A stretch of DNA of 64,000 nt from Nymphaea colorata (taxonomy: Eukaryota > Streptophyta > Magnoliopsida > Nymphaeales > Nymphaeaceae). Below are positions 13,909 to 64,000 of the stretch, in pieces. How positions within the stretch are numbered: position 1 is the stretch's first letter; each line of letters opens with the position of its first letter. Both the position numbers and the translations under genes were made by a program. The notes under the pieces are model-generated. The model was not told where the DNA came from. It was given only the letters and a program-made list of their open reading frames with translations, and made no database searches. The stretch spans positions 19,404,370-19,468,369 of the forward strand of contig NC_045140.1 of NCBI RefSeq assembly GCF_008831285.2, given 5' to 3'.

Positions 13909-16516
13909 ATGGCTTCTCTTCAGATCAGTGCTTGGTCGCCATGCGCAAGGTTCAAAAGCTTGTCGGGTTGCTGTTCTTCCGCTTCAAAGTCAGTCACGCG
14001 TATGAACATGCCCCGTCAATATTTCAACTTGCAGATGAGACTGGACTATAATACATGCAGCAGCCAGAGATGCACACCCGTCTGTGTGTTTGGCCGTGGA
14101 GGAAAACCAGGGAAAGGAAATGAGGTACTTTTCTTTATTTATATCCTTAGGCTTTCCTTTGGATATGAGAACTAACATATCACCATTGGATTCTCTAATA
14201 TAACAACCTGGGTGCTGAGACATTGCACACCTAAACTAGCTTAGGTCTTAAGTACACTCTGCTCTAATGCTTTTGTAGAACATCAACATCATTGAATGAT
14301 GGAATAGAAATACAATATGAATCTAGAATTGTTTACATCAGCTATTATGTCTTAAAAAACATGAAACTGGAGTTGGTTTTGGGAGCAGAATGGTTGCAAG
14401 CTTATTGTGGAGGTATCTTTTCCATAATCTGTTACTTCTGTTCTGCTCCTCCTTGAAAAACCTTTTTTGTCAGGAAAAAGTTGGAATAGAGGTCATATGC
14501 TGTCTCGTTTGTAGGTTTTTGTGGTAAATTTGTCCTTTTTCTCTTGGAATCTGATTTCATGCTATCATGGATGTCATAATGTTTATGGTTCACACATAGC
14601 ATGCTATATGTGTTACTGCCTACTGGAAGCTTAAATGGTTCAAGTCTAGTTCAGTTGTTGGTTTTAGAATAATTTCTAGAGACAGTTCTCGAGGCTATTA
14701 GGTGGACCTATAGACTATTTGCAACTTTTCCTAATGAGATGGGCCTTGATCAGTCGCAGGTCAAAGTTTACATCTTCCTTTTATCTTGATAAGTAATCAT
14801 ATCTGAATTTTAATCGGTTTTCCAGGGTTCTTCATGGAATCCACTTGAAAATATCATGGATAGGTTCAAGAAGGAATTGACAGTTCAGGATGTCTTAAAG
14901 GAGCAGAAGAGGACCAAACAGATGGAATTTGATGATGGAGATGATGATGGTGGTGATGGAAAAGGAACAGGTGGAGGGGGTGATGGAAGTGGGTCAGAGG
15001 AAGAAAGTTTTGCAGGGGCCTTAGATGAATTACTCCAAGTGATTCTTGCAGCTATTGGATTTTCTTTCTTGGTAAGGTTCAGCTTCACTTACCTCATTAT
15101 GAATTTTTCAATATCTATTACTACTATTGGTTTAGGTTTTGTTTCTAGTATCTTTAAGGGAGTTGTTTTCTTTTTTATATGAGATAGAATCTACTGAAAC
15201 TCTATTTTGCCTATATAAAAGACAAAAATTGCATTTAATCATAGTTGACAGAGTCTAAAATTGAGCAAAAATGGCACAAAATGCACTGACCTCATATGAC
15301 AGTGTGACACAGCTTTTCCCTTATCGATGTGCCCTATCCTGAAGTGTTGTCACATTTGGCTGCTTTAAATGCATGTCTATGTGACACACGTTGATGCAGT
15401 ATGCATTTGCCGAATGAATCTAGGGTGGCACAGCATGGAACTACTTCTGAGGCGGTAAATCAGGATGAAAACTCTTTCAATTTCCTCTAAATGTAAAGGT
15501 GCTAGACACATTTAAAGCATCGACCCGAGGACAGCCCTGGTCATTTATGAAGCCCAGTTGAAATTAAGTTTTTTTAGGCAGGGATTCTGAATCTTTCAGT
15601 AGCATTTCTTCCAACTGTTCCCTGGAATGACCCTTACCTTGGAAATTTTATATGCTGACATTTCACAAAACTGCTCGCAATCTGATCTTTTTTGTATTTA
15701 TAGGCTGTTTTTGGTTTCTGCTTCTTTCTTCCATGTATCTGTACACCGGTGTCTATGATATTAGCCTGTTGGTTTAACTTGTGCTTTTTCATCCTCTATG
15801 CGGAGAAATATGAGCTACACATCAGAAAACCAATCTTATAATCCAACTTCCTTTTCAAGTTCATCTCTAATATGATGTCTCTCCTCTTTTCTCTGTTCCC
15901 TCGCTAGTGTGACTATGCAGTGTCATTGAATTTCTGACAAGGACTACCACCAAGGGGATGACTGGGAGAGCTGCAGGGTCAAAAACTTGTCCTCTTCTTT
16001 CATGGAACTCTTGGTAACTGGCACTCTGTGATTCAGCTCAGGCTGTTAATTACTGAATCATGAGATGCTATGCGCTTGTCTGCCAACATTAACAAACCTG
16101 TTTTTCCCTGTTGACGACCTACTAAATGGTTCCTTCTGTCTAGGAAAAGGAAACGAACTCCTAGTAGTTATAGGTCAGATCATTGCATTACATAAAAAAT
16201 GGCACTCTTCCAGCTCAGCCATGCACTAAGCAGTGTTGTTTACTGATTTGTGCTTCTGTTTTTGCAGTATTACTACATCATAAATGGGGAGGAGTTCAGC
16301 AGGCTTGTAAGAGATTACATTCGGTATCTTTTTGGGGGAAGAAAGAGTGTCCGGCTGACACGTGCCTTGGATAGGTGGGAGACATTTCTTGAGAAACTCA
16401 ATAGTGATACCAGAGTAAGGCCTGATTGGCTCGAACGGGAAATTCTGTCAACACCAACTTGGTGGTATGATCCCGAATGGCAGCAGCCGACATTTCGACG
16501 TAGAGCATCCTTTTAG
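13909..16516 (+). CDS. Probable plastid-targeted single-pass membrane protein of unknown function
   Basis: Coding exons 13909-14124, 14826-15071 and 16268-16516 join in phase 0 to give 236 residues. The start is the first ATG in frame after a TGA at 13873. Residues 1 to about 65 are rich in Ser, Arg and Lys and poor in acidic residues, like a chloroplast transit peptide. Next comes WNPLENIMDRFKKELT, then an acidic Asp/Gly-rich linker at about residues 100-125. A hydrophobic stretch around DELLQVILAAIGFSFL at about 139-158 is probably a membrane helix. The C-terminus is basic and aromatic (VRDYIRYLFGG, then TPTWWYDPEW near the end). I do not recognise a named family; it resembles conserved green-lineage plastid proteins without assigned function. 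The upstream G-box and 5'UTR intron fit a nuclear gene for a plastid protein. Confidence is high that it is a gene and low on role. Confidence 0.85.
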
Positions 16517-18688: not shown

Positions 18689-20158
18689 TTACATATTCTC
18701 CTTAATTGTAAGGGAGACACTGAACTCCAATGCATTTCCAGGTACAAATTGTGCCTCAAGCTCTTCAAAGGTCTCATCAACTCTTAAATCCTTTTCAACA
18801 TTCAATCCTTCCTGAAAATAAAAGAATGAAAAAGAAAAAATTTACGCTATGAATATATCTAGTATATACAGCATTAACTGATGACAAATTACTTCTGGGA
18901 AGGTGCAAACCGTAAATCTGGTCAGGTAAAACACTAATTTTCATAAAAAAAAAAAAGAAATTTTGACTGAACTGCAAATTGAAAATACAGGACTAGAGAT
19001 ATCACATTGTCACTTTGCAATGGGAAAAGACAAACCAAGTTGCACATGAAGATGCTGACCAGCTCCAACCATCGTGTAGTCAAGAATGAACAGGTAAATA
19101 GTTTATTTTGAAATCTTGGAATGTGCTGAAAGTATCAAAGCAAAAGGACAGCTCGAGTTCCAGAGTGTAGAAATAATGAGTAATTTGATAATTTCCAAAT
19201 GGAAAAGGATGAAATTACAGGAAAATAAACATTTAACCTTGATGGTCATGATGCAACTTCAGCAGAAAAGAAAGGAAAATGAGTTCCATATGTTCATCTG
19301 GTGTCTGAGCATGTTCCACCATTAGGGACAATCTTTGTCTATTCACTCTGTAGTACTCATGAGAGGTAATGCTTGGAGTTTTATGGAGTTACTGGGAAAG
19401 GTAAGAACATGTGAATTATATTTGGTAACCTCCTGCACATCATTTTGAGAAAGTTTTAACTCTACTTGGATAATATGCTAAGACTTGTCAGGATAGTATC
19501 AAACAAAGCAAGAACCTTGGTGAGAAAATATAGAAATATCGCCAACAAACTTTTTGTATGTAAATGAAATAGGCAAAAGGTAAGATGTTCGACCTTTTTC
19601 TCAAAAGGAAAAAAGATCACCTGATCAGTTTCCTTGCCATGTACTAAATATGGACAATCCCAACTGACTGAAGCAATGTTGTGAAAGAAAAAAAGGATCC
19701 TATAGTGTATCGGAAAACTAAAAAATACAACATATTGGCCCATGTTGGCCATGACTAAAATAATGTCATATTTTTACTCTTTTCATTAGTATTTTACTCA
19801 TATCAGAACATTGGTCTGTACTATGCAAGAGGCAGAATCAGGCCCCACATCATTATGTTTTAATGGTGTAACACATTGCATATAGGCTGATAGGGGCCGT
19901 CATGCACTGGATTTGGCAACATTACTGAAGAAAAGAGAATTCATGCTTTATAAGAAAAGGCAGACAACAGAATCAAATCCTTTACCTTCTCCACACATTC
20001 AGCTACAGCTGAACCAATGATTTCCCGTATGACATGACTGTTTACTTTTGATGGCCCAAGAATATGCAGAAGTATGTCTTTGGGAATCTGCAAAAGCATG
20101 TGCAAAAAATGCATAATAGTTGCAAGTTTATAGTTACACACACAGAGAGAGAGTCTGC

Positions 20159-20203
<45 letters not shown>

Positions 20204-23200
20204 AATTTCAGAAGTTAATCAGTAGACCTTTACAAGGAAGAGAATGCAAAATTAATTGTGATTGTGGAACATAACTGTTCCTCTGGGAAACAGTCAACAA
20301 CGTCATGACTGACAGACACATATTAGTTGCTTCCTTAAAGCTAGCGCATTGCATATAATTCCTTTTAAATAATTCATAATTACTACAAAAATAAGATAAA
20401 TACTTACATCGGGAGTTTTTCCTGAATAATCCGCATTCCCAAGAACATGAAAACAAGTGAAGGTTGAGACATCAGATTTCTATGTCAAAAGGAAAAATTT
20501 TGATCAAGCACAATATATCCAGCAGAAATTAATTGAAAAATGCACACAGCGATCTATATAGAACTTGGCATAAGCAACAAAACAAGCTAAAGCAGAAATA
20601 GGCCAGTCAACGAGCATGCTGAGGAATGAAGCATTTCTTCTACCCAAAGATTCATCAACATATGTACTACATAAAATCATGATGATAAAAATACAGACAC
20701 GGTAAATTAGACCTTTTCCAGGAGGATCATGGCATATCACTCTTATTGTTTCCCAACTTGCAATAGGTTAATGTTGGACAAGAAGCGTCTCAATTGGTTG
20801 AGATAGTTCAGTCTACAACAAGTGCATTCTGCCAATCCAAGGACAGCCTGGGTGACATCCCAAATGAAGAAATTTTCGGCTTCAAAGACCATTTTAGGAA
20901 AATAAAATACTGTTTGCACATTACTTTTAAATGAGGGATTCTGATGCTGTTTTAGAAAAGCAAAATATTTTCAAGAAATGGCAGAACCATTTTCAAAATA
21001 AACTTTTCTGGAAAAAGTTGATATATGACGAGATGTCTTCTCTTGTGCAGCGCACCCATGCTCCCTCCCTCATGACGTGGTCTGCTAAAGAAATGATGTA
21101 GTCCTTCATTTTCCAAACGATCTTCTTCATTAGACTCACAAGCATCTTGAGCTTCAAAGGAAGAGATGTTCCTTCCATTTCAGATGCATGACCAGAAACT
21201 TCTGCAGGAAGAAATGATGCAGAAGTTCCTTCATTTTTCAAATGATCTTCTTCATTAGACTCATAAGCATCTTGAGCTTCAAAGGAAGAGATGTTCCATC
21301 CATTTCAGATGCATGATCAGAATCACCTGCAGGTTAAAAGCCAAACTTTTTTTTTCTTTTTCTGATGGTTTAATTGCAGATGAGGACACTTCATTAGCTT
21401 AAAGCCTTAAACTTCAAAATTAGTGCCCATGAAAAACCTCGTCAGTAAAAGCCCAAAAAATGATGCACAAATACAATCCAACAGTTTTAGTGAATATATA
21501 TATATACAAGTTATATATATATATATATATAAAGGAAGCATGGATCAATGCCAATAGGGCGTCATCCCCAGACAAGTGCATGCTCAATAGGGGCCGCCCG
21601 ATTTCGTTCAATCGGATGGCCCCTATTCTTAAATAATTAAGAAAAACATAGAAGTTGCGAGGGAGGTGATCTTTCGTACTGCCCCCACGCGTTGAGGAGG
21701 GAGCCTATCGCCTCCCCCTGTTGGGCTTTAGTGACAACCCGACGAGGCTGGCCGACCACTAGGCACCATTGGCGAGCCCATTGAGGCATTGCTAGTGCCC
21801 AACAGAGAGGCGGTCTCCCCTTGCAATTTTTTTTTTTCAAGGGAAGGCCGTCAGCCCCCTGCTATCAAGGACGGCATAGTGGGATGTCATCGGTGGCTTA
21901 GGATCCTTGGATTTCTCCATCCATGTTACTCTGGCCTCTCACAAAAATGCTTCGGGAGGTGTGTTTAATCATGCCTGCCTGATGTATTGCACTGGGTGGC
22001 TATGATTGGATGAGGGCTGGATGGCCGAAGGATTTCACCTCCTCTATACACACACACATACATATATATACACTAACTCACATGTGTAGGAACGAGTATG
22101 GACAGCATGGGTTCAGATGTGGCGACTTTAGAAAATGTGGTTATAGGAGAACAAGAAGGTACTTATATATATGGGCCAACCTTTTTTATCAGCATGAAAC
22201 AAGTATTCGGCTGGAAGAGACATAGGAGTTAAACAGATATAGGCTATTTCTTTAACATGTTAGCAGCAATTTGCAAGTTTCTAAAATTTGAGCCTTTTTT
22301 GTAATATAAGCAAAATCTGAGTAGAGCTATGAAAATTTACAAAGGGTCGAAACCTTTCCACACCCTAATCTGTCTCTCTCACTTAGAATCAACCAATTGA
22401 GGGCATTATGCTTGGTCTCCATGAACACAAAGAAGGAAGGTGGTAGTGACACGAACAAGAGCATGAGGCTGAAATCCATTTCTGGGTCAATAGAGTATGA
22501 TTTTGAAGAGATAGGTGTGAATTTTGGTTGCCTAGCATCAAGAACTTGAGAGTTTGTCCCTCATTTTGTCTGGTCTCTCACTTGCTGGGCAGCACTTTTA
22601 TTTAACTTTTTCTGACCCAGACAAAATGAAAACACTTGAACATAGGTGGGTATGTTTTCGGACCCAGACCTGATCCAAGATGATACCCAATTGAACAGGC
22701 ATACCCACGTCTTAAAAACACTGTACTAACATCGGTATATTAGGCAACTCCACACTCATGTCAGCATGTCTGTGCGTCTGTGTAGATACAAAATTTTATG
22801 GCTTTCATGAGATATATGTGCCCACATTTGTTGAAGTCACCGTGCCATACCTTCCATATCCACACCAATGTGACTCTATTTAATAGCAATAGTGATTTTG
22901 GGGATGATAGTGACACGTGGATAACGGTGATAGAAAAACATGGTTGTTTGATGATGGTTATGAATAGCATTGTCATCATCCAACGTACTAGAGTCAAAAC
23001 AAAAAAGCAGAATTTGCAATGTTTGTTTTTATTATTAGAAAAACAACTTAAATGCCTAAACAGTGCCTTGAGAAATTAGTTCTTAACATGGATTCAAGCA
23101 AAGTAGGATTTCTTTGAACTTCTTTTATGAGTCATCCAAATGGTGACTTTAGATTACCAGGGAACATGAACACAAAATGCTTAAAAGATAACCAGCATTC

Positions 23201-26200
23201 AACTACTAGTCTACTAATTTTACATAAACAAGTTATGCTTGAGTATATTCACATAAAGCTTTACCTCCTTTTACCCTTCGAAAGCCTGGAATGGGTTGTG
23301 CAGCATCAACAAGCTGGGAGAAAACCTTGTCAAAATATTGTTGCGTTTTTTCACCAGATACACATATCTTCATCTACAGCATGTTAACAATGCCCATTTC
23401 CATCAAGAAACTATGGAATCACTTAAACAAATATGTGGGATGAAAACTTGACAAATCAACTGGATAGTTTATGACATACAAAGATCATTGGTCAAAATAA
23501 CATGGCATCGCTGATCTTTTACCTTAATTACATCTGGTTCATCTGTATCAGCATTTGCTGTCAATTCCTCAGGTGAAACTGTAAATACAACAGAACATTA
23601 TTTTGACCAGAAACTCAAGACAGAGGAATCCTTGGGAAGCATCTATAGAAAAGGGGAAAAGAATTAAAATTTTAAAACTAACATCAAGTTGCAGACCTGG
23701 TGTCATAGAGGAAAATTTGACCAAAACTTTTCTGCCAAAGTGGTGTCTTGAAAATGAAGCCCTAAACCAAAGCTCAACTCAATCCGGTTGTCAAAATAAG
23801 ATTACATTTAATGAATGAACATGCAATCCATGGTAAAGCAAATGCGAAACAGAAGGCACACACGCACACACAGAGGAAGAGATTCAATTTCAATCTACCC
23901 ACAGTAGAGAGGGAGAGGAGCTGATGAACATCAACGGAGCCCTCTCATGAACAAGGCAACAAGCAACATACATAAGGGTCCAGGTGACTTCTAAACAGAA
24001 CAATGGTATCAGGGTCGGAAATGATGGGCGGATATAACTAAATGTTTGGAGAGGAAAAAGACCTAGAGGTAACATCTATAGAGTTAAGAGGGCATGTGCA
24101 GGCTCTATTTTCCAGAGGAAGAGTTATCTGGATATTTGCAAGCACAATAAGTGGACAGTGCTGGCAGACATTCAGGATAAAATGACTTCAGAAGAATAGA
24201 CTATAGATTCATCTTCCTAAGTATCAAACATATATGAAGTGCATTTGTAAAAGTTAGTTCCTTTGCCAGAAGGAAGGGATTATTCTCATTCGTTTCCAGA
24301 CCTACAAAATATGGATACAATACTAAAGAAAGGTGCATGGAAACTCGCTGGCCAGAATGTGATCATAAACAAGTAAAAACCTGATAAGGACTGGAGGTCA
24401 CGGGTTATGAGAAAAGTTCCAGTTTGCACTATAATCATAGATCTTTGATCTAACCATCTCCTGGCAGGTATTGCAAGGCATTAGGTGGGAAGCTTGTTTA
24501 TATTATACCTTTTACAAGAACGACTCTTCACCGACCATGCTAAGTCAGTAATTAAGTGGCTAATGAGCTCAGCCTACAACTGTTAATTCATGTTGTTTTA
24601 AAGAATCAAAGACATTTTCATTCACCTGTTGTCTGTGAAAACATTCTTGCATTTTGTTCGTGAAGACAGTATATCATAGTCACAGTGTACATATTAATCA
24701 AATCAAGGCTAAATGAACCCTTTATTTCAAAATAATAACAAAAACAAAAGTTAATGCTAACAGATAACAGTAGGTGAAAACAAAAAAAACATGAAGAAAA
24801 AAGGAGATTCAATTAGGTCCCCTGCATAATGATAATAAGTCAGTGATGCTTGCAGATAATACTAAGATGGAGGGGAAGGTTGGCCGTGTTTAGAACTTTG
24901 CCTTAGGAACAATAGTGTGGCTGCCATGAAATCAGTGGAAATCAAGTCAATGTATCATGGCGTTCCAGCAAGCAGCATCTTTCCAGAAACTCCCAGTTGA
25001 TCAAAACACCCAGTTAATACAAATTCAATGTCAAATGACTACTGTACCCTAGAAACACAATATCAAACTTTGTGACTTTGTCCACCGCACATGTCAAAAT
25101 TTTTGTCTCAAACAGAAAAATCATATCAATTTTGTTCTTTGCAATGTACTTGGAAAGACATTTCTACACCCATTGACTAAGCCTAATGTTCCATGAATCT
25201 GTTTTGATTTACAACATGAACCATGAGCAATTGAGTTTGAACTTTGAATCCCTCTCCCATGGGTCACATCACCAATGAAATGTTCATTTTAGCAAATCCA
25301 CCAAAGGTAGCTGTTTAATTTCCCTTCCCTCCATAAGATGCCTGTCCATCTCAAGAGGAAGACTCTTCAACTAATCACCCCCAACCAGAATTGTATTCTA
25401 ATGCCAATACGAGTTTACGAACTGGGCAACTAAGTTAAGATGCTCATTGTGGAGTCTGCTACTGCCTACAAACATCTTTGCATGAGACAGAGCAAGGTCC
25501 GCTTCTCTTGTATTGTTCTGTCCAACGTAACAAACTTCTTGCATTGTACCTTTCTTAACGTATCTGATGTACAACGGTTAGGCAAGAAATTGAACACACA
25601 AAAGCCACGAAAAACTAAACAACGGAAGCAGACAATAGTTCAAACAGCATCAGTCTCCAACAAGAGACATCAAGAGCTAGTCCGTACTGTGTCTTAGCGG
25701 AATAGAAAGAGTTGATGCCTTTAATACCAGCAACCACATGTACATTGCGACCGATTCTCCTCCAAGCTGCAATCTGTAGAAACAGAAACCTAAACATCAC
25801 ATACTAGAATTTGACTACAATAATTTTATAAAAATACAAATGTAACACCACATTTTTCTCAAAGAAGCAAAGTTGGCTTCAACCAAACACGCCGATAGCA
25901 TGCTTCAGAACTTGGATCTGGAGAGACTTTAAAGCAAATATTAAGCAAAATAGATCATGACGACACCAACCAAACATATGAAAATGCTTCCAATCACAAT
26001 CCACATACTGCGAATACGGACCTCAAGAGGCAGGGGAAAAAGATGCTTACTGAAAAGAACATTGAATTTCAGACCTTAAATCAGTAGCTCCATCCATCAC
26101 AATAGACCCAACACCAAGAAAGCGAACAAGACCACGAAAAGAAAAATAAAAAATAAACCACGTCCTTCCAACGGTTAGTTTACCACACAGTTTAGCAATG

Positions 26201-26543
26201 AAGTCACATCCTTCCAGAAATTCAGAAATATTCATACGCTAATTGCTGGAAATGAAAAGCACAAAAGAGAAACTACATAGGCGAAAATATTCAAGCAAAC
26301 AAAGAAAATGGCTGTTTCTCTAAAACGCCTCATTGAACAAGTGGAGCGAAAACAAATACCCAGATTATTGAGTTCTTGATTAATCAAATATACTGAAAAC
26401 CAGGACAACACAAGAAGGAAAAACTCAAGGAGAAACGTGTTTCAAATCTTATCTCAAAATTTAACTGCTAAAACCACAAAAATTGGAACCTCATCCACCT
26501 TGGGAGTCACAGTAGGTTGGAACTTGAACATGGTCGTTGCCAT
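18689..26543 (-). CDS. Trigger-factor ribosome-binding-domain protein, diverged paralogue
   Basis: Eight exons on the minus strand: 26543-26499, 25773-25688, 24708-24626, 23578-23523, 23373-23265, 20421-20408, 20087-19986, 18811-18689, giving 205 residues. Trigger factor is a ribosome-associated chaperone that docks near the L23 subunit. This protein has only the docking-type N-terminal domain: GFRRVKGGK (residues 120-128) corresponds to the GFRxxK signature, followed by IPKDILLHILG. The N-terminus MATTMFKFQPTVTPK looks like the start of an organelle transit peptide. Exon 3 is the weakest: its acceptor at 24709 was chosen because it is the only nearby AG in phase, and the exon keeps HEQNAR in common with the (+) paralogue's SEQNAS. 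Exon 4 is shorter than its partner (56 against 95 nt) and does not align clearly. The last exon ends earlier (40 against 49 residues). It is the inverted partner of the gene at 28192-34274. Whether it is still functional is open, but no stop or frameshift was found. Confidence 0.8.
20153..20202. repeat. (GT)n(GA)n compound microsatellite
   Basis: Alternating GT followed by GA dinucleotides, inside intron 6 of the (-) trigger-factor-like gene, about 70 bases from exon 7. Confidence 0.9.
20408..20421 (-). other. 14-nt microexon of the (-) trigger-factor-like gene
   Basis: TTCAG|14 nt|GTAAGT in the minus direction. It supplies two bases of a glycine codon and then Lys-Thr-Pro-Asp, completing the GGKTP motif. 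Both splice sites are strong and the length equals that of the matching exon in the (+) paralogue. Confidence 0.85.
21090..21333. repeat. Two-unit tandem duplication, about 121 bp per unit
   Basis: Unit 1 is about 21090-21210 and unit 2 about 21211-21333. Both contain GATCTTCTTCATTAGACTCA and the same CATCTTGAGCTTCAAAGG block, with only scattered differences. It lies in the 2.8-kb intron 5 of the (-) trigger-factor-like gene. Read on the minus strand it gives open, Glu/Ser-rich stretches such as SFEAQDAYESNEEDH. The unit length is not a multiple of three, so the two copies fall in different frames. Confidence 0.85.
21488..21531. repeat. (AT)n microsatellite, two blocks
   Basis: Two runs of alternating AT separated by ACAAGTT, in intron 5 of the (-) trigger-factor-like gene. 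Confidence 0.9.
21586..21627. repeat. GC-rich hairpin, 18-bp arms
   Basis: Left arm AATAGGGGCCGCCCGATT at 21586-21603 and right arm AATCGGATGGCCCCTATT at 21610-21627 pair with two mismatches around a six-base loop. Related words (ATAGGGGCCGTC at about 19890, CAATAGGGCGTCATCC at about 21552) occur nearby. This suggests the end of a small transposon or a repeat family. Confidence 0.6.
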
Positions 26544-28191
26544 CGATGCCGTCCCAGTTCTTTTTGGCGCCTCCTCTCTTATTTAAGACGACGTACACTG
26601 CAACGTTATCAAAATCACTTCACAAATTGAAAAACCTTAAAATTCGGTGAATCGGAATCGTCCGTAAATCGGGAGCATGAAAATTATTTTTATTTAAGAA
26701 GTCGAATAAAACTGAAAACGTAGGAAAATAAGAGGACCGAAATGTACTTTTCAAAATCATGTGCCATAATTTTCAAAATTTGTGGAAAATAATGGGACCG
26801 AAATGTACTTTTGAACCTGGCTTTGATGAAAAAGAAGAATTCTGGAGAGTTACCTTAGGTAGAAAAGAGGTGATGAATCAATCCTATGTTTGATGGGCGA
26901 TGGGCACAATGGAGAATGGAAATCACAGACAGATATGTCACTTGATTCCACAAGTCAAATGTATTTCAATTTTCAATGTACGTTCCTTATCATTTAAAGA
27001 GGAAAGTAAGAAAAGAAAACAATAAAACCCACGTCACTTCACTTGATCGACTCAAATTCAGTTGTCACTTGTTTGATCATGAGATCCATTGAAATGGATT
27101 TAGCACTGATCTCTTGTCTTTAGACAACTGCGCCAATCACCTTTTGGATATTCTGATCACAACCTTCACCACATGCAGCCCTCAGAACTTGCTTGCTTGT
27201 TCATGAACTGACATTGATCTTGTTCACATCACCTACCAGATTGCTTTAGGATCACCCAATACTACCATGGCTTTCCAAAATGCTAATGTGGGTGTTTAAT
27301 GGAAACATGATCTTCTGAACGTAATTGCTAGGGAAACAAGGTGGGTGGCCCTCAAAATTAGAGTTTTAGAGATGGATTCATGGAAATTAATTTGGAGAAA
27401 AGGATTTTGATTTATATATGAAGTGATTGGTTGATGATGGCATGCAAAAACGCCATTTTCTTGCAGGGAGCTCCAGAGAGAAGGATAAAGATCTACTGTC
27501 ATAAATTTTACTCAGCACTCGATGATTTTATTCCATGTGATTGGTTTTCTGATAAAACTTTATTAAGACACTGAAATAAAAATGGTAAGGCTTTACGTAT
27601 AAATTTATGTAATCATCAAAAGTCGAGTGTTTTTGCAATTTTCCTGACAACAAAATTGTAGGAGGCCGTTGCGACCTTTAATCTGCAATCTATTTTCTTT
27701 CCAAGGAAAAATGTTGTTAAATCTCCAAGTACAAGTTACCATGCACATTACTGTGATGAACTGAGCATCATTGCCACAAACTTTTACTTAAAAAGAACTT
27801 CCTTCCCTCAAGAACACGTTCCAGAAATAAAGAGCATGTCGCATATTTTAAAATGGTAGAAAATTAGAGAAATTCATTCCATTTTATAAACATACATCGC
27901 ATCTCCCTTCCATGAATTTTTGAGGTCCGCCCATTTCCGCGCTTCCGATTTCGTTTATAGGGTTCATTATAGTCTGATATCCTCGAAGGGTATTTTCGGC
28001 ATTTTCTCAGACGTGCTTCACTTCGCGAGGGAATGCAATCAATCCTGCAGTTGTGCGGAGTCTCTGTGTCATTTTGGAGGGACATGGGCACTCCGTTTTA
28101 GAAGCATGCAGCGTCTTCGGTTCTTGACGAGAAAATAGATACTACGTCTTAAACAAGGGAGAGGTGCCGAAAAGGGTCCAGGATAGCGTCG
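26544..28191. promoter_or_regulatory. Divergent promoter region between the trigger-factor-like pair
   Basis: About 1.65 kb lies between the two start codons. Roughly the last 50 bases before each ATG still align between the two sides (both contain a CGTCTTAAA word, then GAGAGG, then CGATGG), so the duplication reached into the 5'UTR. TATA-like words are weak: TTAAATAAG on the minus strand near 26580, and GTTTATAGG on plus near 27952. The middle of the region shows no gene or clear repeat. Confidence 0.5.
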
Positions 28192-31100
28192 ATGGCGACG
28201 ACCATGTTGAAGTTTCAACCTACTGTGATTCCAAAGGTAGATAAGCTTCCAATTTTTATGGTTTTAGTAGTTAGATATTGAGATAAGGTTTGGAACACTT
28301 TTTTCTTTAGTTTTTCCTTCTTGTGATACCGGCTTTTAGCATCTTTGACTAATTAAGAGCTCAACCATCTAGGTATTTGGTTTTGCTCCACTTCTTCAGT
28401 GAGGCATTTTAGAGAATGAACCATGTTCTTTCCTTGCCCTGAATTTCTTCGCCTTGGCAGTTTCTTTTTTCTGGTTTTCGTCTCAGTTTGACTGAAGTAG
28501 CCAACAATTACCATGTGAATTTTTCTGAATTTCTGGAAGGATGTAATTCATCTGCCAAATTGCGTTGTTCACGCGTTGGAAGGACTTAATTATTTGCTAT
28601 TTTTCTTTTTCGTGGTCTTGTTCGTTTATTGGAATCAGGTCTATTATAATGGATGACGCCATTGACTCTAAGGTCCCTAATTCGATGTTCTCTTTAGTAA
28701 GCACCTTCGTTTTTCTCCTGCACCTTGAGGTCCGTATTGGAAGCATATAACGATGCAGTATTTTCCATGTCTGGTTGGTTCCATCCTGATTTATTTTGCT
28801 TAAAATTTGCTTTAAAATGTGTCCGAATCCAAGTTATGGTTTTTTTTTTCTCATATTATATGCATGTCGGGATGGTGCTAAATTTGCTTCTCCTTAAAAA
28901 GAAAATTCTGGTGGTACATTTGTATTTTGTTTAAGTTTGTGTAGTCAAATTCTAGTCGGTCATAAACAGGTTTCTGTTCTACAGGTTGGAGTTTTGAGGA
29001 GAATCAGTCACAATGTACATATGGTCGCCGACATTAAAAGCATCAAGTCTTTGTACTCCACTAAGATACAGTACGGTCTAGTTTTGATGCTTCTTGTTGG
29101 ACTAATGTTGGTTTGATATATCATCTACTTCCATTGTTTAGTTTTAGTGGCTTTCTATGTTCCTAGTTCTGGCTTAATCATGACATCTTTGCGCTTACAT
29201 CAGATGCATCTTCTGCCTGTTCTGAGCCTTTCAGCATTTGTCCATATCACTTTGGCTGTTTCTGTAAAAATTGCATGCGTATGCTGTGCTCAAATGTTCT
29301 GAAGCTTGGTTCTTTTATTTATTTTGGAAACTTTCACATCATAGATCTATCTGCCTTCAATTTTTTTTTTGTCAAGCATGAATGACCACTATTTTTTTTT
29401 GAACTCCAATTGATCTGTTGGTATAAGTATCATATTTTGCGTAGTAAAGAATGGAACCAATTCCCATGCAGATCTCAGAGTAACATTCATGACCCCATTT
29501 AGGATAAAATGAATCAACATGACAATAGAGACAAACAGATGCAATGGCAGTGTTTACATGAAGCAGTCGTTTTTCTTTTAAGTGAGAACTCAGAAGCAAG
29601 GTGCTTCAAATGCACTTCAGCAGATACGACAATCAGGTTCAGTTGCATCTATAACTTGGATGGTTGCTTGTGATGCTTTGTGGACTATTGTTCATCTAAG
29701 GCATTTAGCACATAGTCATCTCAAAATGTCTTGTCTAATCGGATGCATTGGACTTCTCTTACATGTTCAACATTTCAACAACAATTGAAACCACCAACCT
29801 GTTTGGATGTATTCAACTTTTTGACTTGGACAAGCATTTTTACCATGCTATGCTGATTTCCTTTGGGCCATCAAACTCTTGGTACCCTTCGTCACCAAGT
29901 TCATAAACGGTGCCCTTAAATGCTCATGGGTTGGGAAACTCTTGTAGCCCATTCACCCATTCACCAAAGGAGCTTCCTTGGCCTTACTTTTGATTTTGAT
30001 TTCTCTCATCATATAAGATAGTTTCTTAATTGTTATTGACCACTCTGAGTTTGACATATCAAAATTAAATTTATAATTTGCAAATGACATGTTATTGTCT
30101 GCCTGATGATCAGTAAATGGAATTATTAGTGACGAGTCCACAAGTAGTTAAGCATATAGAAGTTAAATTTCTAAGAGGCATTACATGTCCTATTTATGAT
30201 TGTTATGTTGGTACATGGATCTGATAATGTGAGCTACTAAGAAAAGTTTCCATCACCAAAGATCTCATAGTTGTCTTAGAAAATAAGCGTATCAGGAGCA
30301 TAAATAGGCATCACTATTGATGATGAGTAAATTGGATATTTGATATGAAATATTTCCATGCTTGATAGTGAATTGCTGGCCATTTGGGCAGGACAAATCC
30401 CAAGTGCTAAAGCATGGATTACAGGCATCGCCTTGAATTGTGACTACAAACCTTGGAAGAGACATGGTCTCTTGATTAATAGAATATTTTCCAAAATAAA
30501 ACCGACCGTGTTGGCAATGTTCCACTTAGCATTTTGTCAAATTTATACTCCTTCAGGGGAATGCTTAAAGTTGATGAAATGTGAATATAATTTTTTATTT
30601 TAGATGCAGCATGTAAAGCCAAAATGTGAAGCTAACACTCTATGGGAACATATGGTGTGATGGCATGTCATTCTATGTATAACTTGGACCTAAGTGATTC
30701 CACGGTTTCACTATTGGTTTTTGGTATACAGATTATTTGGAATAGGTTGGTCCAGCTAGTTCTAGGGAGGAAAATGCACTCATATTGGCCACATTAGGAG
30801 CTGATGGGAAACTTTATGTTTTGGCAGGGAGGGTTTGTTTCGTGTTGTGGGATGGGAGAATATATGGAAATGGATCATTGGGACAAAATATCGTGTGTCT
30901 GCATAAGCTATTCATGGTCTACATCATCTTAGATATAAAGATCTTTTCCATTTCTGTTTGCTTAGCATCAAGTTTGGGGAAAGTGCATCTTTAATCTTGG
31001 CTGATGGGATTAACTCTTTTTTCTATGTGTACATATAGGCATTAGAATGCTCTCCTGTCTTTTATGAATATGTTATAACTTATTAACTTTTAGCAGTACC

Positions 31101-34100
31101 AAAATTTCCGACAACTCGCAATGATGTTTATGTTCATTATCATCAGAGGGACGTCTAGAAAATTTTACCAACTTATATGCTTCCTTGGCACTTGTGGTAC
31201 TTGTCAAAAAATATACGTGTATGTGCAGGCACTAAAATTACATTTGCGGATGTTTGAAACATGTTCATTCACGCCATTGCTTATGCAACAAACTCTGAAG
31301 CCCATAACAACGTTTATATTCATTGTCATTCTTTGGACTCCAGCTACAATTACCAACTTATAACCCTCTTTTAGACTTTTTCTTTATAAATCTTTTCTGT
31401 TAGAATTTATTGATATGCTTCTCTCATATTTGAAGTTTTTGCTTGAGCAGCCTTTATTGTTGCAGTGTGATCACTCATCAACTTGATGCTGCATTTCTTT
31501 ATTCACCACAGGTTATTACATTCTTCTGAGCAAAACGCTTCCAGACATGTTCAGCTTACTGCTAATGCAGTTGGTTCAGGTGAAATTAGTTCTTGATTAT
31601 GGCCCTGGGTATTCAATTTTTTTTTTCTTGCAAATAATTTTAATGATTTAAACCATCTAACTACCAATTTTTGTTTTTTGTTGTTTATTTAGGATTAGAA
31701 GGGTCAATAGCCGATGCAAAGGGAAATGATTTAATCTTGAGAGATGCCAAAGTAGTTTTGGAGTCTCGCGATGATGACAAGATACATGTAAGGCCTTCCC
31801 TGACTCTGCATGCTGTTCTATTTCTTCTACTAGCTGCATGCTGAAAGTCTGAAATATAGTTACATGTTGCATCCTTCTTCATAGTTTCCCATTCACCACT
31901 AAGCTGGTTGAAATTAAATCTTGATGGTGAAAATTTTATCTTTTTGTTGCATTTTATATCACAGTACATGGTAAACATGTTTTGATATTCAATTCGTTAA
32001 CCAGTAAGTCTGTAATGGTCCAATTTTTTGTAGTAAAAATGGTTTGTTTGTTCTGCACTTCACGTCAGAAAACTGAAGTAATTAAATGTGCTACACAGTA
32101 TCATAATCTCATTGACATAACGTCTAAATGATCCTTATATTGATCCTATCTTCATGTTGAGAGAGAAATATGGAATAAAATTGTACCATTCTAATGGTGT
32201 TCACCACGTAAATGCTTCCTTAACTTCAACCAAAAAATTTGCTGATTGTTCTGTTTATTCAAGGTGGCTTTATTGTCTAAGGTCAGTCATTTTTCCCTTG
32301 TTCATGTAACACTGTCCTAGTCAGCCCTTTCTTAGGATGTTGTAATATGTTTATCAATGGGATATGGGTATCATTTCTTTATTCAGATCAGGGCTTGCCC
32401 AATGCCAGGTTGGTGAGACAGATCTAATTACTGTGCTAAGAACACATTTTTCACCTGTTTGGTTTATCAGGTAAGAATTGACTTGACTGGGGAATCAACT
32501 CAGAAAGTGTATGATGATGTTTTAACGAACTTGGCTCGTACGGCACCACCCATTCCTGGATTTCGAAGGATGAAAGGAGGTTTGATTTGTTTCACCACAT
32601 TCATAATAGACTTTTGCATATTTTAAGCATAAAATAATTTATGCTTAATAATGTACTTCACAAGTAGTTACTAATCAGGAACTCTTTTGACTGTTTGCAT
32701 GTGCATCACGGGATTCATTCAGGAAAAACATCAAATGTAAGTACCAGCCGATCTTGGCAGCTTGTTAAGATAGAGTTGCAAGGTGTTCCATGCATATGAA
32801 AACATCTCTGTTCCAATCTTGTTCCTTAATTTTGATTGCTTTAATAGCAAAATTGTTATTTCACTGGGAGATTTCCTCTTAGTTTGTGCTTAAGTAAATC
32901 ATATCTTGCTTTCCTTGACCTTCCGAGTGCAACTCCTAGTTTATTGGCTGACTGAACTTGACTCAAATGGCACTGAGGGTAATAACGAACGTCTTTTCCT
33001 TTTTCCCATCTAATCTGATTTTTCGGATGCTGACTTGTTAAAACTCTAAAGTGTTTCCATTGTTTGAAACACCTATTTTAATAGTTTTTTTTATGCTTTA
33101 AATGATTTGGGCATAATTTTATTTGGGAAGCTCATGGACCAGTTTATAAGGTCTCAAGAGATGGGTGGTATCCTTCTATAGTGCCATAAATCACTCAAAT
33201 AGTCATGGTTAAAACATTCTGTATGTTTTCTTATTGAGTGCTGAGGGAAGCTGCAGAATCTTTGGATGCCATATTTAGGCACAATGCAGGTCGTACCATG
33301 TACTGTTCTGGTCTAGAACCTGTGGGTGCTCTTCATCTGCCTGCCAGGAAAGTGTCTCTGTTGCATTTTTTTAGAATAAACCCATACACCTAGCATCTCT
33401 CTCTCTCTCTCTTTAACACACACAGACTCCAGCAAACTAGGATCAGTAGTTCAGCCGATTGTTATCCTGCAAAAAGGGAAAACACAGCAGAGACACAACA
33501 CAAGAACTTCCAGAGAAGAAGAAACAAGGTCCAGCCCTGATCTGAGGATGGAAGACCTCCTAGTTGCTTACAGTTCCATAAGGTTCTGCATTCCTTTAGG
33601 CATTAGGTTTTATAGGTGATGCCTCCCCTTGGGTCAGTGACCCAGACCTGTGGCCCTATCTCCTTAGTATGGCCTTATTATTAGGTCACCCGACTATCGT
33701 TGCCACTGCCAAGTTCCTCTCAAGAATGTAATCTGTGCTAGGTCAGTGCTCTGAAACTCACAGCCCATTACTTCGAAAATTAATTTACGGTGGACATTTA
33801 TTAAGTGGCCTTTTTAAGATTTTGTAGCACCAGGTTGAATGTGGACCAGATCCCTTAATCTAATGCAGTCACAAATTCCTTTTTCTTCACAGCCACGGTT
33901 GTTTAAATCCTTGAAAGCATTGATTTGTTGAGTTTTTGCAGGTTCCGAAGAACTTTCTTCTGAGTATTCTCGGTGAAGATCGTGTTACCAAGTTCACCAT
34001 CCAAGAAATCGTCAGTGCAGCAACCGCTGATTACGTCAAGAAGGTATATTACGTGGAATGCATGTGAATTTGATTCAGTGATCCTGAATGGCATATCCTG

Positions 34101-34274
34101 ATTGGCACTTATTTATGCACTTAGGAGAATTTGAATGTGAAGAATAGCTTCAGTACGACACAGAGTGCAGAAGAACTTGCTGCCTCCTTCAAGCCCGGTC
34201 AGGAGTTTGGGTTTAATGCGGCGATAGAGCTTGAAAAGTCAGACACTGAAACAAACCAAGCGGCCACTTCGTAG
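28192..34274 (+). CDS. Trigger-factor ribosome-binding-domain protein, probably plastid-targeted
   Basis: Eight exons: 28192-28236, 28985-29070, 31512-31579, 31693-31787, 32471-32579, 32723-32736, 33942-34043, 34125-34274, all in phase, giving 222 residues. The family is plant proteins with just the N-terminal domain of the bacterial chaperone trigger factor, which docks at the ribosome exit tunnel; the peptidyl-prolyl isomerase and C-terminal domains are absent. Residues 1 to about 65 are basic and hydroxylated, like a transit peptide. The domain core begins near residue 70 (GLEGSIADAKG), continues with VRIDLTGESTQKVYDDVL (99-116), and carries PGFRRMKGGKT, the docking-loop signature, at 127-137. 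Then follow VPKNFLLSILGED and AADYVKK-type helices, and KPGQEFGFNAAIELE ends the fold. The first intron still aligns with that of the inverted partner. A plastid ribosome role is inferred from the family. Confidence 0.9.
32723..32736 (+). other. 14-nt microexon of the (+) trigger-factor-like gene
   Basis: TTCAG|14 nt|GTAAGT. It encodes the end of a Gly codon followed by Lys-Thr-Ser-Asn, linking PGFRRMKG to VPKNFLL. Skipping it would remove 14 nt and break the frame. Length and phase equal those of the microexon in the (-) paralogue. Confidence 0.9.
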
Positions 34275-63300: not shown

Positions 63301-63496
63301 TTGCTTCAGCCAGTCCAGCGGACTCCCTCTCTCTCTCACAGATATATCTTTGATCAGAATCGTTTCCTTTTTTGTGGGTTTCTGGAATTGATGTGTGCGA
63401 GTTGATCTCTCTGTGGTGGGGAAGGTGTTGGTTGTTGAAGCATACGGAAGGAGAGGTGGGTCGGGGGGAATAGCAGAGAAGGGGAAGCAGTTAGTG

Positions 63497-63682
63497 ATGA
63501 AGATCCAGTGTGATGTGTGCGAGAAGGCGCCGGCGACGGTGATATGCTGCGCGGACGAGGCGGCGCTGTGTGCGAGGTGCGATGTCCAGGTGCACAAGGC
63601 CAACAAGCTGGCCAGCAAGCACCAGCGCCTCCCCCTCCACTCCCTCTCCTCCGCCAACTTCCCCCGCTGCGACATCTGCCAG
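63497..63682 (+). CDS. Double B-box zinc-finger protein (BBX), first coding exon (3' partial)
   Basis: 62 codons from the ATG at 63497. MKIQCDVCEKAPATVICCAD opens a class of plant BBX regulators (the STO/BBX18-25 group) that work in photomorphogenesis, often with HY5 and COP1. Zinc ligands of B-box 1 are visible: C5, C8, C17/C18, D20, C25, C28, H33 and H42, within the family pattern ALCxxCD...NKLASKHQR. The exon ends RCDICQ, the beginning of B-box 2, which in relatives continues in the next exon. The following bases are GC (CAG|GCATCT), so a GC donor is inferred; reading on gives a low-complexity Ser/Pro tail and a stop. Exon 2 is not found before base 64000, so the intron runs out of the window. 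No CCT domain is expected in this group. Confidence 0.9.
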
Positions 63683-64000
63683 GCATCTCCCTCTCCCTCC
63701 CCGTCTTCCTCCGCTCTTCTTTTCGTTTTTAAATTGATTATTATATATTATTATTATTGTTTTTCTATATTTGTTGACCATATTATTATTATTATTATCG
63801 TTATTTCTTAAGGATTTTTCTTCACAAAAAAATCAGGAAATTAGTTTCTGCCGAAACCCAAAACTTTGCCTTTAAATTCATAATTATATTATTTGTTTTG
63901 TTTGACAGTAATTGGGAAGTGGATGCCATCGTCATTTTAGTTTGTGCAATGAGTTTTCATCACTCATGTAAATGTTCTTTCCATGCTATTTTGTTGAGAT
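63683..64000 (+). other. Start of the first BBX intron
   Basis: AT-rich sequence with ATT-repeat microsatellites (about 63737-63757 and 63780-63799). No B-box 2 coding sequence was seen up to the window end. Confidence 0.6.

Follow-up and report, generated by a model that had tools for sequence, protein, structure and literature searches.

A mosaic head-to-head pair of Tig2-like genes in Nymphaea colorata with an apparently younger 5′ kilobase

Two Tig2-like genes lie head to head in the window, the whole 64,000-nucleotide stretch of Nymphaea colorata contig NC_045140.1 that was analyzed here, and their silent divergence shows the pair to be a mosaic in which the 5′ kilobase (5′UTR, exons 1 and 2, and intron 1) appears several-fold younger than the sequence that encodes the mature domain. 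With modest confidence, we favor an explanation in which an old inverted duplication was followed by ectopic gene conversion of the 5′ ends, in a pair of genes predicted to be Tig2-like and to act in plastid 50S assembly. As a rule, a transit peptide evolves faster than the protein to which it is attached. In this pair, by contrast, the targeting end and its intron are more similar between the copies than the domain is, which shows that the ends of a gene for a plastid protein may differ in history at one locus. Such pairs should not be dated from a single end. Tig2 has been described only lately as a factor in plastid ribosome biogenesis, and a second, divergent copy would allow a test of role division.

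Gene models and protein family

Two eight-exon genes occupy opposite strands, with ATG codons at 26543 (− strand) and 28192 (+ strand). The 1,649 bp between these codons bear out the initial annotation, which had placed the starts of two opposite-strand genes about 1.65 kb apart.

28192..34274, + strand: Tig2-like gene of 8 exons (+ copy), 222 amino acids plus stop, defined by the exon-by-exon model and Trigger_N
Exons of the + copy: 28192-28236, 28985-29070, 31512-31579, 31693-31787, 32471-32579, 32723-32736, 33942-34043, 34125-34274
18689..26543, − strand: Tig2-like gene of 8 exons (− copy), 199 amino acids plus stop, defined by the exon-by-exon model and Trigger_N
Exons of the − copy: 26543-26499, 25773-25688, 23761-23697, 23578-23523, 23373-23265, 20421-20408, 20087-19986, 18811-18689
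32471..32736, + strand: exons 5 and 6 of the + copy, coding for the docking loop PPIPGFRRMKGGKTSN
20408..23373, − strand: exons 5 and 6 of the − copy, coding for the docking loop QPIPGFRRVKGGKTPD

Exons 1, 2, 5, 6, and 7 measure 45, 86, 109, 14, and 102 nt in both copies, and the intron phases are equal at seven of seven introns, so that the equality in length and phase noted earlier for these exons was confirmed in the rebuilt models. Exons 3, 4, and 8 are unequal, with 68, 95, and 150 nt in the + copy versus 65, 56, and 123 nt in the − copy. The same phases in all seven introns, along with the same lengths of exons 5 to 7, show that the gene bodies descend from one gene. Borders of the GT...AG type are found at 14 of 14 introns of the two models, but this rule guided the choice of exon ends and hence provides no independent evidence. 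Exons 3 and 4, which hardly align between the copies, are the least certain part of both models, which were built from genomic sequence alone.

The sole Pfam match of the + copy protein is PF05697 (Trigger_N) at residues 86 to 209 (E value of 1.8e-9), and that of the − copy protein is the same family at residues 77 to 196 (1.1e-9). With Trigger_N alone in each protein and a pairwise alignment at an E value of 7e-52 (83 identities in 212 columns), both copies encode the same single-domain ribosome-docking protein, as had been claimed. Comparison with TIGR00115, the NCBIfam model for full-length trigger factor, gave a match of the − copy to the first 101 of 410 positions at 27.1 bits (cut-off of 180.2) and no match of the + copy. 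The sequence PIPGFRR-x-KGGKT, containing the GFR ribosome-docking motif, is present in both copies, and an N-terminal extension of 76 to 85 residues, the putative targeting part, precedes the Trigger_N domain in each.

Arabidopsis Tig2 (At2g30695) is described as a truncated plastid trigger factor that aligns with the ribosome-binding domain only, has a GFR motif as well as a chloroplast transit peptide of 54 residues, and promotes the maturation of the plastid 50S subunit, most of all in the cold (PMC11731035). TIG2 is named in mosses and higher plants (PMC5587573), and the accounts in PMC11731035 and PMC5587573 mention a single Arabidopsis Tig2 gene. The window genes resemble Tig2 in having a single trigger factor ribosome-binding domain, the GFR loop, an N-terminal extension, and a similar size, and also in being without a PPIase or a C-terminal chaperone part; unlike Tig2 of Arabidopsis, they form two divergent head-to-head copies with a common 5′ end that is apparently younger. 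Judged from sequence, the pair likely represents paralogous plant Tig2-like genes that are predicted to be plastid targeted and to have one ribosome-binding domain each. The suggestion that they provide two chaperone isoforms is doubtful, because Arabidopsis Tig2, the nearest characterized protein, did not prevent the aggregation of RbcL or GAPDH, the two substrates tested (PMC11731035). Among the papers listed by literature searches, none was seen to report two Tig2 genes in head-to-head arrangement.

Divergence of the 5′ block and of the gene bodies

When the two gene regions were compared by blastn, one long match was obtained (28145-29154 versus 26590-25601), with 75.7% identity over 1,032 columns.

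28145..29154, + strand: arm 1 of the 5′ block, comprising the 5′UTR, exon 1, intron 1, exon 2, and the first 84 nt of intron 2
25601..26590, − strand: arm 2 of the 5′ block, the blastn match to arm 1

The match may continue weakly to about 29208 in arm 1 and 25555 in arm 2, an extension whose score 3 of 200 shuffles reach; no additional copy of the block was found within the window. The arms are 89% identical in exon 1 and 80% identical in exon 2; intron 1 is 77% identical, with differences at 164 of 710 sites (K of 0.28), and the beginning of intron 2 is 78% identical. Identity drops to 44% on either side of the block, which we read as the level of a forced alignment. The earlier statement that the 5′UTR ends align holds for the 47 nt before the ATG, of which 31 are identical (66%), but not farther upstream, where the scores for 100 and 300 nt are at shuffle level (reached by 170 and 41 of 200 shuffles, respectively). 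Along the block, divergence was without significant unevenness at the 100-nt scale (740 and 800 of 2000 shuffles); the corresponding counts were 81 and 101 of 2000 at 50 nt, and at 25 nt the differences were clustered (31 of 2000 shuffles for all sites and 1 of 2000 for non-coding sites).

The coding sequences fall into parts of very different divergence. Exons 1 and 2 have a dS of 0.295 and a dN of 0.167, with 65% amino acid identity over 43 codons, versus a pS of 0.69, a dS of about 1.9 (values near 2 being saturated), a dN of 0.51, and 42% amino acid identity over 115 codons for exons 5 to 8. Synonymous sites are saturated in exons 3 and 4, for which identity is 17% over 41 codons. The gap in pS between exons 5 to 8 and exons 1 and 2 is 0.45 (95% bootstrap range of 0.24-0.65) and was zero or less in 0 of 1000 bootstraps. 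If exons 5 to 8 had diverged to the extent of intron 1, their 53 synonymous differences out of 77 would have a probability of 2e-17. Four-fold sites gave 4 of 12 in exons 1 and 2 versus 15 of 25 in exons 5 to 8, numbers that are too small to decide alone. The dN/dS of about 0.27 in exons 5 to 8 points to constraint on the domains.

Introns 3, 4, 5, and 7 are at shuffle level between the copies, with scores reached by 112, 185, 25, and 158 of 200 shuffles, respectively, and the scores of the intron 2 tails were reached by 21 and 104 of 200. Control windows of 81, 113, and 143 bp taken from intron 1 (n = 67, 64, and 61) scored at least 16, 27, and 45, versus 10, 11, and 15 in introns 7, 3, and 5. 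An apparent similarity in intron 6 (score of 27, shuffle maximum of 18) was rejected as a (CT)n(CA)n microsatellite, with 150 of 200 shuffles reaching the score after masking. These compound microsatellites, at 20160-20201 and 33397-33433, have the same gene orientation in intron 6 of both copies, which could be due to chance or could be a faint trace of common origin.

The low silent divergence in the 5′ block, set against the high divergence in exons 5 to 8 and the unalignable introns, indicates that the 5′ ends parted several-fold later than the gene bodies. The silent divergence of the tract lies far below that of its flanks, as in a pair undergoing interlocus gene conversion, and the even level along the whole gene that is typical of a recent whole-gene inverted duplication was not seen (0.295 versus 1.9).

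Possible origins of the 5′ block

In the favored explanation, an old inverted duplication would have created the head-to-head pair, and one or more later ectopic gene conversions would have copied the 5′ end of one gene onto the other. Conversion would have evened out only the ends nearest the axis, with the domain parts continuing to diverge under purifying selection. In both genes the block lies at the end nearest the axis and in homologous position, and this placement, together with the shared phases, suits conversion in an old inverted pair. By analogy to Tig2, both products may enter plastids by means of almost identical targeting peptides, and they may dock at the large-subunit tunnel exit via GFRR-x-KGGK and act in 50S assembly, with their roles perhaps divided. 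Allelic recombination in Arabidopsis is described as favoring promoters, with crossover-linked tracts of ∼300 to 400 bp on average and minimum tracts of up to 1,229 bp (PMC3865688); a conversion tract of 1 kb is thus possible but long. The excess of the block over the average published allelic tract counts against conversion, as do the unalignable introns elsewhere, which would hinder pairing of the 5′ ends if these had not stayed similar from an early stage.

The main rival to gene conversion is a partial inverted duplication (i.e., transit-peptide capture), by which ∼1 kb of one gene, containing the 5′UTR, exons 1 and 2, and the start of intron 2, would have been duplicated in reverse orientation in front of an older neighboring paralogue and would have replaced its first exons; we regard this as a tentative possibility on the unlikely side. 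The block's sharp left edge, 47 nt ahead of the ATG, beyond which no sequence aligns, and the even divergence at the 100-nt scale are consistent with such an event, for which there is a precedent in rpl32, whose transit peptide is described as derived by exon shuffling from a copy of SOD1 (PMC8018952). However, the piece must have landed in phase on exactly homologous exons of the adjacent paralogue, and the intron 2 tails, examined with a simple open-frame scan that returns many chance frames, showed no clear remnant of earlier first exons. The evenness at the 100-nt scale fits one event of any kind and is not specific to conversion, and the clustering at 25 nt could reflect several tracts, uneven constraint, or alignment error; the divergence pattern along the block does not separate conversion from partial duplication.

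We assign a rather low probability to the proposal that these are two ancient Tig2 paralogues with different mature domains, maintained head to head in inverted arrangement, in which recurrent conversion holds the plastid-targeting exons alike and leaves the working domains free to diverge, amounting to concerted evolution of the transit peptide alone. If this were true, one common import signal would serve two divergent 50S-assembly factors.

A single inverted duplication of the entire gene, as old as the 5′ block and with rapid 3′ divergence thereafter, was the view of the initial annotation and is very improbable. The inverted layout, the common exon lengths and phases, and the common 5′ block agree with it, but the silent sites of exons 5 to 8 and introns 3, 4, 5, and 7 are unlike intron 1 (p = 2e-17 for the silent sites), and introns and silent sites are not sped up by selection on the protein. 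From the proposed local inverted duplication with both copies open, we retain the paralogy, the inverted head-to-head arrangement, and the two open copies, but not the single event at one date, given a K of about 0.28 in the block versus a dS of about 1.9 in exons 5 to 8 and the unalignable introns 3, 4, 5, and 7. The contrast in age goes toward two old, separate copies, the situation that the annotation itself had named as speaking against a local duplication. A sequence or assembly artefact, or one unexpressed and decaying copy, might be suspected for a gene pair known here from genome sequence alone, but is extremely unlikely given that the 23% divergence of intron 1 exceeds the haplotype level and that each copy retains an open frame through all eight exons, with phases that agree between the copies and a dN/dS of about 0.27 in exons 5 to 8.

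Gene conversion between old inverted paralogues has a known counterpart in GOT1p1/GOT1p2 of Tigriopus, a conversion mosaic between paralogues that is described as shown by population data (PMC3728101). That pair and the window pair are alike in that stretches of low and high divergence adjoin in one paralogue pair; they differ in that conversion is inferred from one genome in the present case and that the targeting end and its intron make up the similar part. In SOD1-rpl32 (PMC8018952), as in the window pair, the segment for the targeting peptide and the mature protein differ in history, but the genes involved are unrelated, whereas the window pair consists of paralogues of one family at one locus. 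Conversion mosaics, as in the account of PMC3728101, and transit-peptide transfer are already known; beside them, it is unusual for a targeting end to be younger than its domain in genes of a single family at a single locus.

Spacer, database searches, and other features of the window

Both putative promoters would be located between the arms of the block.

26591..28144, no strand assigned: spacer between the arms, 1,554 bp, G+C of 0.37, not mirrored

Comparison of the spacer halves gave no match between them, and the idea of one divergent promoter region finds no support in this sequence, which is without mirrored parts. On the side of the − copy, the spacer contains two 32-nt direct copies (26723-26815) that are 91% alike and 61 nt apart.

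Relatives were sought in several collections. None was confirmed in viral_contigs, which cannot speak for plants, among 21 matches to patterns taken chiefly from the N-terminal part and 51 matches to domain patterns, nor in genome_contigs (bacterial and archaeal, and silent on plants), among 68 matches to the chiefly N-terminal patterns and 73 to domain patterns. The plasmids collection, which says nothing about plants, yielded no relative of the − copy domain, the only query used. A search of the Protein Data Bank by sequence with the + copy returned 28 rows at E values up to 1, which were rejected; the best was a HisF design (0.0023), and two rows were trigger factors (0.66 and 0.76). The three capsid/Gag rows returned for the − copy (E values of 0.27-0.55) were dismissed as chance. 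Rfam gave no match at the gathering score in the window.

Intron 5 of the − copy contains a tandem direct repeat at 21102-21333 (unit of 125 nt, 1.9 copies, 92% matches) that, when read on the − strand, is an open, acidic stretch (ISSFEAQDAYESNEED...). The open frame overlapping this repeat (20996-21304) had no Pfam match; the repeat could be a relic or an alternative exon. Outside the gene pair, open frames at 14814-16513 on the + strand (MDRFKKELTVQDVLKEQK..., ...INGEEFSRLVRDYIRYLFGG...) resemble exons of one gene and have no Pfam match at an E value of 0.01, and the start of a B-box zinc finger gene (Pfam PF00643, E value of 5.3e-7) is found at 63392-63808 on the + strand.
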